From Rheinheimera sp. D18 (lineage in GTDB: Bacteria; Pseudomonadota; Gammaproteobacteria; Enterobacterales; Alteromonadaceae), in assembly GCF_004345025.1 (NCBI RefSeq), contig NZ_CP037745.1, positions 310,001 to 374,000 on the forward strand: 64,000 nt of DNA. Reading direction: 5' to 3'. Made by a program: the position numbers and the translations under genes. How positions within the stretch are numbered: the stretch's first letter is position 1; each line of letters begins with the position of its first letter. The notes under the pieces were generated by a model. The model made no database searches and had not been told where the DNA came from. It saw only the letters and a list, made by a program, of their open reading frames with translations. Below, one piece after another: positions 6,004-9,860 of this stretch.

Positions 6004-7485
6004 ATGGCTAATTACTTTAATACACTGAATTTACGCCAACAGTTGGCTCAACTGGGCCAATGCCGTTTTATGGATAAAGCTGAGTTTATAGAAGGCTGCG
6101 AACTAATAAAAGGTTGGAATATCGTCATTGTTGGTTGCGGTGCTCAAGGCTTAAACCAAGGTTTAAATATGCGTGATTCCGGCTTAACAATTCGCTATGC
6201 GCTGCGGGCTGAAGCGATTACCGAACAGCGTGCATCCTTTATTAAAGCGACGAGCAATAATTTTGCTGTGGGTACCTACGAGCAGTTAATTCCTAGCGCA
6301 GATTTAGTCCTGAACTTAACACCAGATAAGCAACATAGCGCAGTAGTTGAAGCCATTATGCCATTAATGAAGCAGGGCGCGACGCTAGCCTATTCACATG
6401 GTTTTAATATAGTGGAGGAGGGTAAGCAAATTCGACCGGATATCACGGTAATAATGGTAGCACCTAAGTGCCCAGGTACCGAAGTGCGCGAAGAATATAA
6501 ACGCGGCTTTGGCGTACCAACATTAATAGCCGTGCATCCAGAAAATGACCCCAATGGGCAGGGATTGGCTATTGCTAAGGCTTATGCTTCTGCTACAGGC
6601 GGCGACCGTGCCGGTGTATTACAGTCGTCATTTATCGCTGAAGTTAAGTCAGACTTAATGGGCGAGCAAACGATTTTATGCGGCATGTTGCAAACGGGGG
6701 CAATTTTAGCCTTTGATAAAATGATTGCTGATGGCATTGAAGCCGGTTACGCGGCCAAACTTATACAATACGGTTGGGAAACAGTAACCGAAGCATTAAA
6801 GCACGGCGGTATTACTAACATGATGGACCGTTTAAGTAACCCCGCAAAAGTTAAAGCCTTTGAGTTAGCAGAACAACTTAAGCAGACATTGCGGCCGTTA
6901 TTTGAAAAACATATGGACGATATTATTAGCGGCGAATTTTCGCGTACCATGATGATCGATTGGGCTAATGACGATAAAAACCTATTAACATGGCGAGAGC
7001 AAACCCGAAGTAGCGGTTTTGAGCAAGCGCCGGTGTCTGCAGAAACTATTGCTGAGCAAGAATATTTTGATCATGGCACCTTGCTTGTTGCCATGGTGAA
7101 AGCCGGCGTTGAGTTGGCATTTGAAATTATGGTTGATGCCGGTATTGTAGCTGAATCCGCCTACTACGAATCGTTGCATGAAACACCTTTGATTGCTAAT
7201 ACCATTGCGCGTAAGCGGTTGTATGAGATGAATGTTGTTATTTCGGATACCGCAGAATATGGTAACTACTTATTTTCGCATGCGGCAGTGCCATTATTAA
7301 AAGATACGATTAATAACTTAACTAGCGACTACATAGGCCAAGGTTTAGTCGGCCGATACGGTGTTGATAACCTAAAGTTGATTGCAGTAAATGAGGCAAT
7401 TAGGCAGCATCCTGTTGAAGTTGTAGGTAAAAAATTGCGAGGTTATATGACTGCTATGAAGCGTATCGTCGAGCTGCAGCAATAG
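6004..7485 (+). CDS. ilvC: Ketol-acid reductoisomerase, class II (long form)
   Basis: IlvC isomerises and reduces acetolactate or acetohydroxybutyrate with NADPH and magnesium, in valine and isoleucine synthesis. The 493-residue length marks the class II enzyme with a duplicated C-terminal domain, as in E. coli (491). The dinucleotide-binding loop is [10 protein letters not shown] near residue 46, and the arginines following it suit NADPH. A conserved [18 protein letters not shown] stretch sits near 157. Regulation by the divergent ilvY is expected. A terminator lies 88 bp downstream. Confidence 0.97.
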
Positions 7486-7596: not shown

Positions 7597-7689
7597 AGCA
7601 AGTAACTTAAACCGAGCATAAAATGTAACTCGTACAAGTTAAGTTAGTTATTGACGTGAATTACCGAAAAATATTGAAGTTAGTGTGCT

Positions 7690-8013
7690 GAAGGAGTTGG
7701 CCGCAAACTGCGCGGCCTCTCTAATATTCTTTCGTCATCCTGACGATACTGTCCGTAGTAGCTCTTCCTTGGCCCCATCCTAGGGTGTTCCTAAAGCGTC
7801 TTGCTTGTCCTGCTATCCTTAAGCATCGTCATCCTGACAATGCGCTCTCATCCTAAGAGTTCCTTTATCTTTCTCGCTACTTCCAGCGCCAGTGATGAAA
7901 CTGAAAAAAGCATACTCTTCCTGAGCGTGTCCTGTTATTCATCCTTGTGCTATCCTAGCAATCTACTGCATCCTGCAGCTGTACCCTACATCCTGTTGGG
8001 TCTATCCGTTGAC
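7690..8013 (-). ncRNA. csrB: CsrB/RsmZ-type CsrA-sequestering small RNA
   Basis: Read on the minus strand, this 320-nt stretch contains 18 GGA triplets spaced mostly 8-20 nt apart, many in loops of small hairpins. Clear examples are TCGTCA-GGA-TGACGA (7732-7746), TGCTA-GGA-TAGCA (7948-7960) and CTGCA-GGA-TGCAG (7966-7978). Others are ACCC-A-ACA-GGA-TGT-A-GGGT (7983-8001) and a 4+4 bp stem with one mismatch at 7823-7843. Four sites read CAGGATG, the classic CsrB repeat. Stem sequences differ while the loop is constant, as in RNAs that titrate CsrA. The predicted start is G8013, 7 nt after a GATAAT box, and the 5' end GTCAAC folds against GAC with a GGA in the loop. The 3' end is uncertain: a GGCCGC / GCGGCC hairpin (7699-7717) lacks a T-tract. 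No protein-coding alternative is convincing. Confidence 0.85.
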
Positions 8014-8019
8014 AAAGCT

Positions 8020-8025
8020 ATTATC
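8020..8025 (-). promoter_or_regulatory. Predicted -10 box of the csrB-like RNA
   Basis: On the minus strand the sequence reads GATAAT, 6 nt before the predicted first base at 8013. The -35 region (about 8043-8048, TGCTTT) is poor, as expected for a promoter that needs an upstream activator. AT-rich DNA at 8080-8135 separates it from the UvrY-type box. Confidence 0.55.
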
Positions 8026-8182
8026 AACTTTTCAGCTTTGTTAAAGCAGTGGTTTTTTTGAATTAACTTGCTGTAAGAATAATGTAATTTGTGAAATTTA
8101 ATTTTTAATTGTTTAATTTCATTATGTTACGGTGTTTACTGCTATTTCATCTTAATGTGAATAGCGCTTAAACTCAGTCATT

Positions 8183-8200
8183 TGTGAGATATATCTCACA
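8183..8200. promoter_or_regulatory. UvrY/GacA-type binding site upstream of the csrB-like RNA
   Basis: A perfect 18-bp palindrome TGTGAG-ATATAT-CTCACA matches the GacA/UvrY box form TGTRAG-N6-CTYACA. Its centre is about 178 bp upstream of the predicted csrB start, close to the known distance of these boxes from csrB/rsmZ promoters. It resembles a CRP site, but the TGTGA/TCACA arms are 8 bp apart instead of 6. It also lies 68-85 bp upstream of the DyP peroxidase start. Confidence 0.75.
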
Positions 8201-8267
8201 AAGTGGCAGGCTTAAAGGTTGTTTTATCTTACAGAAGAATTGGACTTAGTGATTTAAAGGAATAGAT

Positions 8268-9191
8268 GTGGCAAGAGAACAGTTGGGAATATGTGCTGAA
8301 GCAAATTTACATGGTACTTATCTGCTATTAAATGCTTTTGAGGGCCATGAAAAGGTATTGCGTTATAAGTTAGCACGTATCTCGCAGTTGTTTGATCGTT
8401 TGGCGGGGCATTTTTCTGAGGCGATGTTAACGGGCATGGTTGCTGTAGGCAGTAATTATTGGGATGTGCTTTATCCTGATGCCAGGCCCGCCGCCTTAAA
8501 AACCTTTCCAGAGATAGATGCGAATGATATTGGTATGGCGCCAGTACCTATAGATCTATTGATCCAAATTCGTTCAGACCGGCTTGATGTTAATATTATT
8601 GCTTGTCAGCAAGTATTACAGCTATTGCAAAGCCACGTTGAAGTGCAAGAACAGCTGCAAGGTTTTCGTTATTTAGATGGCCGTAACCTTACTGGTTTTA
8701 TTGATGCACCTTATAATCCTGGAACACGAACTAGACGGCCGGTTGCGTTAATAAATACTGAGCAACAACCTGTTTTTGCTGCAGGTAGTTATTTATACCT
8801 ACAATATTTATGTTTTGATCAGCAAGCATGGCAACAATTAGCGGTAGTAGACCAAGAAGAAATTATGGGCTGTTATAAAGTATCTGGTAAGCCCTTACCG
8901 GCAGAATTGTTGCTTGCAGATAGCCATTTTGCCGTTATGCAAAAACACGGCGAACAAAATACCATGGTACTACAACAAAATATGCCGTTTTATCAGCTAA
9001 AACGTCAGGGCTTAATTCAAATGAGTTTTGCCGCTAGTCCTGAAGCATTGAATGAGCAACTATATCAACGTTTAGGTATAGCAGAGCATGCGGTGGGGGC
9101 AGACTTACTGCTGGCTTATCATCATATTGAATTGAGTGCAGCGTTCTTCGCACCCTCTATCAGTTTTCTTGAGTTATCAGCCACAGATTAA
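8268..9191 (+). CDS. DyP-type heme peroxidase, YfeX-like, with altered active-site residues
   Basis: Dye-decolorizing peroxidases use a b-type heme and hydrogen peroxide. The 307-residue length and layout match the YfeX/class P branch. The motif region YLDGRNLTGFIDAPYNP (about residues 145-161) corresponds to the GXXDG motif, and DSH near residue 222 corresponds to the heme-ligand histidine. The GXXDG glycine is alanine here. The usual distal arginine before the Q-x-x-P-Y/F segment appears to be glutamine (VLQQNMPF). No signal peptide is seen. The start is GTG, preceded by AAAGGA. It stands alone, downstream of the csrB control region. Confidence 0.85.
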   Translation: MAREQLGICAEANLHGTYLLLNAFEGHEKVLRYKLARISQLFDRLAGHFSEAMLTGMVAVGSNYWDVLYPDARPAALKTFPEIDANDIGMAPVPIDLLIQIRSDRLDVNIIACQQVLQLLQSHVEVQEQLQGFRYLDGRNLTGFIDAPYNPGTRTRRPVALINTEQQPVFAAGSYLYLQYLCFDQQAWQQLAVVDQEEIMGCYKVSGKPLPAELLLADSHFAVMQKHGEQNTMVLQQNMPFYQLKRQGLIQMSFAASPEALNEQLYQRLGIAEHAVGADLLLAYHHIELSAAFFAPSISFLELSATD

Positions 9192-9204: not shown

Positions 9205-9672
9205 TTACACTTTCTCAAATAATTCAGTAACCTTAGTAAGCGTAAAATCTATATTTTTTACGCTTATAGGAGCAATGAAAATCGTATCATCACCCGCGAT
9301 AGTTCCCAGTACGCCTTCCGCTTTGCCTACCGAGTCAAGTAATCGTGCAATAAGCTGTGCTGCACCAGGGCTAGTACGAATAATGATCATCACGTCGTTA
9401 TGCTCAATATCTAATACTAGCTGTCGCAATGGGCTTTTAGTGGTTGGTACGCCTAATTCTGATGGCAGGGTGTAAACCATATCTTGTCTGGCGTTACGCG
9501 TGCGAACGGCACCGTATTTACTTAACATGCGTGATACTTTTGACTGGCTAATATTGTCAAAGCCATCGTTTTTTAACGCGTCAACAATTTCACCTTGAGA
9601 ACCAAAGCTTTCAGTTTTTAATATTGATTTAAAAGCCTGAATTAACGCTTCTTGCTTAGCTTGTTTAGTCAT
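9205..9672 (-). CDS. argR: Arginine repressor
   Basis: ArgR is a hexameric repressor of arginine synthesis genes that needs L-arginine as co-repressor. The winged-helix N-terminus ([20 protein letters not shown]) covers residues 1-75, with [16 protein letters not shown] as recognition region. The C-terminal oligomerisation and arginine-binding domain contains [11 protein letters not shown]. An ORF extension of 20 residues upstream exists, but starting at MTKQAKQ gives 156 residues as in E. coli. It is divergent from mdh, the usual gammaproteobacterial arrangement. Confidence 0.95.
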
Positions 9673-9860
9673 ACCGTGCTCATTTTTGTAATTTATTGCC
9701 ACTATCTTAACAAAGTTCGTCGCTGGCGACACTTTGTGAAGTAAACTAGATTAAAATTCGCTAAAATGCCTAAACTTTAAGCTTAAGCTATTTGTGTTTT
9801 TTACGCGGTTTCAGTATTGTTGGCGCGTTTTTCATTCAATCGTTATCGAGGGAAATAATC

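Follow-up and report, generated by a model that had tools for sequence, protein, structure and literature searches.

Csr small RNAs have been described in several of the bacteria that offer the closest comparisons with the locus reported here. In Shewanella oneidensis, northern blots, q-RT-PCR and deletion mutants established that CsrB1 and CsrB2 are BarA/UvrY-dependent, and the UvrY/GacA box of Shewanella was given as TGTAAGN6CTTACA (PMC3171408). Pseudoalteromonas fuliginea carries three Csr sRNAs per genome, designated Pf1, Pf2 and Pf3, and according to the authors Pf1 and Pf2 have no sequence relatives outside Pseudoalteromonas (PMC9927453, PMC11882849). The Aln1a-c RNAs of Alteromonas macleodii are rich in A(N)GGA, were proposed to sequester CsrA, and were the most highly expressed in the data set concerned (PMC5864184). 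E. coli csrB is preceded by the repeat TGTGAGAGATCTCTTACA centred at -183/-182 (PMC4682653), and SELEX with CsrA yielded the consensus RUACARGGAUGU, whose GGA usually sat in the loop of a hairpin (PMC7652899). Among the open-licence literature matches listed, none reports a Csr RNA in Rheinheimera, Alishewanella or Arsukibacterium. Here we describe a locus of Rheinheimera sp. D18 that very probably is a csrB gene, its product a predicted BarA-UvrY-activated, CsrA-sequestering RNA; this RNA belongs to a well-known class and not to a new one.

The window analysed (64,000 nucleotides of contig NZ_CP037745.1, positions 310,001 to 374,000) carries ilvC at 6004-7485 on the plus strand (NCBIfam NF003557, 937.8 bits) and, on the same strand at 8268-9191, dyp, which encodes a Dyp-type peroxidase (TIGR01413, 124 bits) and is divergent from the RNA. 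The gap between the end of ilvC at 7485 and the start of dyp at 8268 measures 782 bp, in line with the approximately 780 bp of an earlier note on this DNA, and argR (9205-9732, minus strand; NF003457, 264 bits) belongs to the neighbourhood in relatives. A comparison of ilvC with a plasmid collection returned 60 records, mostly enterobacterial and 60-80% identical, and nothing on the RNA. The predicted transcript of about 324 nt occupies 7690-8013 on the minus strand, with a 5' end that probably lies at about 8013-8018 and a 3' end at about 7680-7699, and is recognized by its GGA counts, its match to the Rfam CsrB model RF00018 and its conservation in the genus. A recount returned the 18 GGA triplets and four CAGGATG sites that the earlier note had reported, together with 15 AGGA and 9 AGGAT. 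Once minus-strand stretches starting at 7600-8400 are set aside, no 324 nt of the window, on whichever strand, contain more than 7 GGA or 3 AGGA. When the 7690-8013 stretch was dinucleotide-shuffled (n=2000), it gave 9.8 +/- 2.2 GGA with a maximum of 16, and the same kind of shuffling gave a mean of 0.8 and a maximum of 4 for AGGAT and a mean of 0.05 and a maximum of 2 for CAGGATG. Base composition accounts for part of the raw GGA count; since mononucleotide shuffles (n=2000) reach 19 GGA, that count is less special than the AGGAT and CAGGATG motifs and the placement of the triplets in hairpins.

At the gathering threshold, an Rfam search of the whole window returned only a tRNA. Under a permissive search, the best match in the gap was RF00018, at 7664-8018 on the minus strand (36.6 bits, E 2.4e-8), aligned end to end over model positions 1-356 of 356. 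The covariance check proposed in the earlier note thus gave a significant full-length match, though one short of the 71 bits set as gathering score, and the ilvC-dyp locus is the only RF00018 match at E <= 0.001 in the whole 3.3-Mb genome. Of 98 genomes sampled from the GTDB family, 28 have a match at E <= 0.001, possibly an undercount because the family-wide search ran stricter filters, and none (0/98) exceeds the gathering score; a low score therefore seems typical of the family and may reflect the make-up of the RF00018 seed. Other genera of the family yield a graded series of RF00018 matches. Two genomes have more than one, three in G095 and two in G061, and these might be csrB paralogues in a large-genome genus.

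Upstream of the predicted RNA, a pattern search located a perfect palindrome, the UvrY/GacA-type inverted repeat TGTGAGATATATCTCACA at 8183-8200, which is kept in relatives and whose centre lies about 178 nt upstream of the putative start at 8013. No other site in the window matches with one mismatch or fewer. At that tolerance, however, one or more matches turn up in 35 of 100 shuffles of the window; the palindrome by itself is therefore weak evidence, and the argument rests on its being conserved and on its spacing. Across the genome, TGTRAGNNATNNCTYACA has one exact match (8183-8200), the reversed pattern has none, and three further sites appear with one mismatch; near two one-mismatch palindromes, at C1:23578 and C1:2553755, no Rfam match was found at E <= 1. 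The spacing was examined with a script whose settings favour hits (a relaxed box, the longest GGA chain and an accepted distance of 170-260 nt). The RF00018 search of the family returned 30 loci for 32 matches, 29 of them other than our own, and 27 of these 29 have a box followed by a GGA chain, L027 and L028 being without. The first GGA falls 190-200 nt after the start of the box in 24 of the 27 box-bearing family loci, and in 19 of 23 non-duplicate genus loci. In E. coli K-12, the distance from the start of the box to the annotated 5' end of csrB is 191 nt, and the RNA has 22 GGA.

These results bear directly on the question of ancestry. It is conceivable, if unlikely, that the ilvC-dyp RNA is a CsrB-like CsrA sponge of independent origin, a product of convergence on GGA hairpins that does not descend from enterobacterial csrB. 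Such an origin would agree with the RF00018 score below the gathering level and with a genomic place unlike that of E. coli csrB, which lies at yqcC-syd, and repetition of GGA hairpins could by itself generate partial model scores; a de novo origin was indeed proposed for Pf1 and Pf2 (PMC9927453, PMC11882849), one of the two reports leaving common ancestry possible (PMC9927453). Convergence is harder to reconcile, however, with an RF00018 alignment that extends over the full length of the model, with a palindrome at about the distance found at E. coli csrB, and with the graded matches in other genera of the family.

The GATAAT box that the earlier note placed at the predicted start is present at 8020-8025 on the minus strand and reads CATAAT or CATACT in relatives; its -35 element is poor, which would not be surprising in a promoter that depends on an activator, and this is probably why a promoter scan returned no promoter pair at the 8020-8025 -10. 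Between the UvrY box and the promoter, an alignment of 13 sequences (A2) revealed an AT-rich element at 8071-8089, TTTACAATAATATTACA in most aligned relatives, with two TTACA half-site-like units, which might be an extra binding site for UvrY or an IHF-type protein. Within 8183-8268, the end of the UvrY-type box and the GTG start codon of the divergent dyp lie 67 bp apart, and dyp could therefore be co-regulated. At the other end of the gene, a hairpin with the arms GGCCGC...GCGGCC (7699-7717, minus strand; helix 10 of the analysis below) is kept in aligned relatives. The letters after it in this genome, AACTCCTTC, form no U-run, and for that reason we infer the 3' end and termination; a terminator scan found none on the minus strand at the 3' end of the RNA. 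Tails after the hairpin are C/U-rich in relatives, and in a diverged genus member, G107, a hairpin is followed by UUUUUCUUUU, a clear U-run.

Base pairing was assessed in an alignment (A1) of 23 homologues from 23 of the 31 genus genomes. L056 (from G123, a 28-base match) and the loci of G098, G099, G104, G105 and G107 are not in it, the G063 locus (L039, the same as L025) and the G017 locus (L043, the same as L020) were removed as duplicates although L025 and L020 are themselves absent through an oversight, and L055, L057, L058 and L059 were left out as repeats of loci already present; because of these omissions, the covariation counts rest on the easier-to-align relatives. RNAalifold predicted 48 pairs, 21 of them with compensating double changes. 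Ten local helices (44 pairs) were chosen mostly from this prediction, and hence lean towards it; helix 9 was added by hand, and RNAalifold columns 13-16/339-342 and 31-32/48-49 and the outer pairs 297-312 and 299-311 were omitted from the local-hairpin count. In the ten helices, 94.7% of cells are paired, compared with 24.7-46.1% when the helices are slid by 1-3 columns, and double changes occur in 21 of the 44 pairs, compared with 9.7 +/- 1.6 in shuffles, none of 500 being as high. The GGA hairpins with variable but compensating stems that the earlier note had picked out in a single sequence are therefore borne out in the alignment.

Individual hairpins illustrate how the stems have diverged. 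The GGA-capped hairpin GCATTGTCA-GGA-TGACGATGC at 7823-7843 on the minus strand has 9 bp and uses other stem letters in relatives, e.g. ACTATTAC...GTAATAGT; its stem keeps 7 or more pairs in every row but one (22 of 23), the exception being L037 with only 4, and its letters differ between two clades. This hairpin was excluded from the ten-helix count because its register shifts by one base between clades. The 3'-proximal hairpin TCGTC-AGGAT-GACGA (7732-7746, minus strand) is helix 9, one pair of which is unpaired in 12 of 23 rows. By eye, the Arsukibacterium-type rows (L047-L050 and L052-L054) contain three extra GGA hairpins that are absent from the Rheinheimera-type rows, and L021 has two further ones, the extra-hairpin region corresponding to A1 columns 125-190; GGA hairpins thus behave as modules that are gained or lost. 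The single-sequence folding energy of the RNA is not exceptional (z = -1.45, with 8 of 100 shuffles as good). The GGA triplets, the hairpins and the box given in the earlier note hold up; the folding energy and the outcome of the terminator and promoter scans leave the case weaker than that note implied.

The RNA adjoins dyp in all 31 genus genomes, our own included. A DNA search found it in 26 of the 31 (again counting our own) at 70-93% identity over the matched parts, the match spanning about 105 bases or less in 10 of the 26. All 26 DNA-matched loci have a UvrY-type box, then 11 or more GGA in a chain, and dyp alongside, and ilvC is visible in 11 of the 26 within the 1.5 kb inspected on each side. 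The other five genomes (G098, G099, G104, G105 and G107) carry the palindrome and then a GGA array beside dyp, such that this combination located every one of the genus loci missed by the DNA search (5/5). A scan of named genomes with a DNA pattern taken from the RNA returned 19 stretches, with the box and GGA chain in 12, among them Rheinheimera (R. nanhaiensis, R. baltica and R. lutimaris) and Arsukibacterium, and in none of the other 7. One of the 7 is L106 (R. pleomorphica), whose box is not visible because the stretch starts 46 bases before the match; L092, L093, L095, L102, L103 and L105, also without box and GGA chain, are records of unrelated organisms and were taken as chance matches or mislabelled contigs. 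A scan of genome contigs by Dyp protein gave 27 pattern matches, none a confirmed relative. The GGA and hairpin architecture, whose conservation in relatives the earlier note had proposed as a check, is accordingly kept, with compensating changes.

Elsewhere in the GTDB family, the same RNA type adjoins other genes. Some csrB-like arrays are very large: L007 (G043) has 47 GGA in 560 nt, L018 (G081) has 33 in 487 nt, and L014 (G045) has 35 in 542 nt, in which a pair of hairpins, judged by eye, is repeated about four times in tandem. A single box in the locus precedes each of these three arrays. Within the genus, L139 (G105) has 28 GGA over about 450 nt; E. coli csrB, for comparison, has 22.

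The genome also encodes the expected protein partners. It has one csrA gene (66 aa, 118.6 bits), UvrY scores 355 bits against a cut-off of 280, and BarA scores 894 bits against a cut-off of 890, only just over; from these matches, the known BarA-UvrY-CsrA circuit is encoded. By analogy with the known CsrB pathway, BarA would phosphorylate UvrY, and UvrY-P would bind the palindrome at 8183-8200 and switch on a promoter some 180 bp downstream of it. Through its 18 GGA motifs, many of which sit in short hairpin loops, the transcript (about 320 nt) would sequester CsrA dimers, thereby releasing CsrA-repressed mRNAs as reported for E. coli and Shewanella. The CAGGATG loops fit the CsrA SELEX consensus. 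Transcription, UvrY dependence and CsrA binding are thus predicted from the pathway, and the interpretation of the earlier note, an RNA of CsrB type, is supported by the RF00018 match and the conservation of hairpins and GGA. That note mentions neither the UvrY/GacA-type palindrome nor the genes for CsrA, UvrY and BarA, nor a further Csr-type RNA in the genome.

A second putative Csr-type RNA was reached through the one-mismatch palindrome at C1:3103634 and a downstream AGGA cluster. It is about 317 nt long with 9 GGA (G000:C1:3103149-3103465, equivalent to L084:1650-1966; minus strand), and combines a UvrY-like box with a canonical terminator. Its folding is strong (z -3.59, with 0 of 100 shuffles as good), and Rfam returned no Csr match there at E <= 1. 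On one side it is flanked by yihA and a cytochrome c gene, and on the other by yihI and a gene that has no NCBIfam match and was labelled methyltransferase-like in this analysis. E. coli csrC sits between yihA and yihI, and the second RNA thus seems to occupy the csrC position in the same genome as the ilvC-dyp RNA. It resembles E. coli CsrC in this position and in running in the same direction as yihI, and differs in having the cytochrome c and methyltransferase genes inside the block, the comparison being one of gene position and direction.

By DNA search, the second RNA is present in 27 of the 31 genus genomes, our own included, 10 of them matching only at E 2e-5 to 6e-4, and the surrounding gene order was inspected for L124-L135, which make up 12 of the 27, and for G099. 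G098, G107 and G123 have a box and GGA array at the yihA-yihI place, and G115 is the genus genome outside these three and the 27 DNA matches. An alignment of 12 sequences gave 65 pairs, 4 with double changes; as the aligned sequences are close, the structure receives little covariation support. Beyond the genus, an order-wide YihI search matched 86 of 119 genomes, and 50 upstream stretches of the 86 were examined (30 loci of up to 1.5 kb and 20 with about 2.5 kb; for L156 and L159, which lie near contig ends and were both negative, the scanned part included yihI). A density of at least 10 GGA per 250 nt was found upstream of yihI on the sense strand in 17 of 50 and on the antisense strand in 0 of 50, while 33 of 50 gave no support. 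The GGA-dense stretches are distributed over families f18 (4/4), f6 (5/5), f25 (3/6), f1 (2/6), f21 (1/6), f10 (1/2) and f5 (1/1), with none in the other ten families, and a UvrY-type box appeared in one of the 50 (L182). Coding content aside, a GGA-dense place upstream of yihI therefore appears to be common to several other families, in a minority of the 50 stretches.

The coexistence of two such RNAs raises the question of whether the first still functions. That the ilvC-dyp copy is a decayed or silent csrB whose job has passed to the yihA-yihI RNA would accord with its 3' hairpin lacking a U-run in this genome and with the canonical terminator of the second RNA, but we consider it very improbable, as this genome retains the box, the -10, the 3' hairpin and the majority of the hairpins in the alignment, and the RNA is present in 31 of 31 genus genomes. 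A broader proposal can also be entertained, and we regard its chances as even: that a two-RNA design, comprising csrB with a near-fixed spacing of the UvrY box and csrC at yihA-yihI, predates the split between E. coli and this family, while the number of GGA hairpin modules evolves fast by tandem duplication and thereby tunes CsrA capacity. If true, an ancient two-RNA design would speak against Csr RNAs having arisen de novo again and again in the order.

The protein-coding potential of the gap appears slight. Its only ORF of at least 60 aa, at 7801-8061 on the plus strand, is an 86-aa frame with a TTG start, and no ORF in the gap is conserved throughout the genus. By tblastn, the frame is interrupted by stops in L032, L035, L036, L037, L044 and L045, and in most other relatives the alignment breaks up into short pieces. 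In one subgroup (L025/L039, L038, L040 and L041), the frame stays open over 64-76 aligned residues at 39-47% identity, weak evidence for a protein because the DNA is conserved for another reason. The earlier statement that the gap has no credible protein gene agrees with the six interrupted frames and is qualified by the open frame of this subgroup. A protein-coding or untranslated region that is GGA-rich on its other strand by chance could point to the existence of this ORF and to its open alignment in the subgroup, but is scarcely credible against the interruption of the frame in six other relatives, the constraint observed on minus-strand base pairs and GGA, and the location of the same RNA type beside other genes elsewhere in the family.

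For the Rheinheimera/Arsukibacterium group, the ilvC-dyp locus, taken as a csrB gene, is a candidate for the output of the BarA-UvrY-CsrA circuit. Judged by the Rfam gathering score, Csr RNAs go unlisted throughout the sampled genomes of the GTDB family, 0 of 98 passing the cut-off. Considered jointly, this locus and the yihA-yihI RNA open questions of how old Csr RNAs are and how they turn over to testing. Four points stand out: that the Rfam threshold misses these RNAs across the family, that the promoter geometry is nearly fixed, that the hairpins are modular, and that an RNA occupies the csrC position.

Comparison with the known systems places the RNA among them while marking its own features. 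Alteromonas macleodii Aln1a-c differ in that three RNAs arise from one 404-nt intergenic region (PMC5864184). Pf1 of Pseudoalteromonas fuliginea is alike in having 21 GGA and a GacA-type box, a likeness drawn from its description (PMC9927453, PMC11882849). CsrB1 and CsrB2 of Shewanella oneidensis share a GacA box upstream and AGGA/ARGGA motifs, as well as a BarA/UvrY dependence that is predicted here, and differ in being about 420 nt long, in lying as two copies split by a transposase gene, and in occupying another genomic place (PMC3171408). E. coli CsrB differs in having 22 GGA compared with 18 here, and in its place at yqcC-syd as opposed to ilvC-dyp, the Rheinheimera RNA in addition scoring below the gathering level and lacking a U-run. 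The two are alike in their GGA hairpins, in their length class (about 324 compared with 369 nt), in having CsrA, UvrY and BarA as partners, and in a UvrY inverted repeat situated about 180-190 nt upstream.
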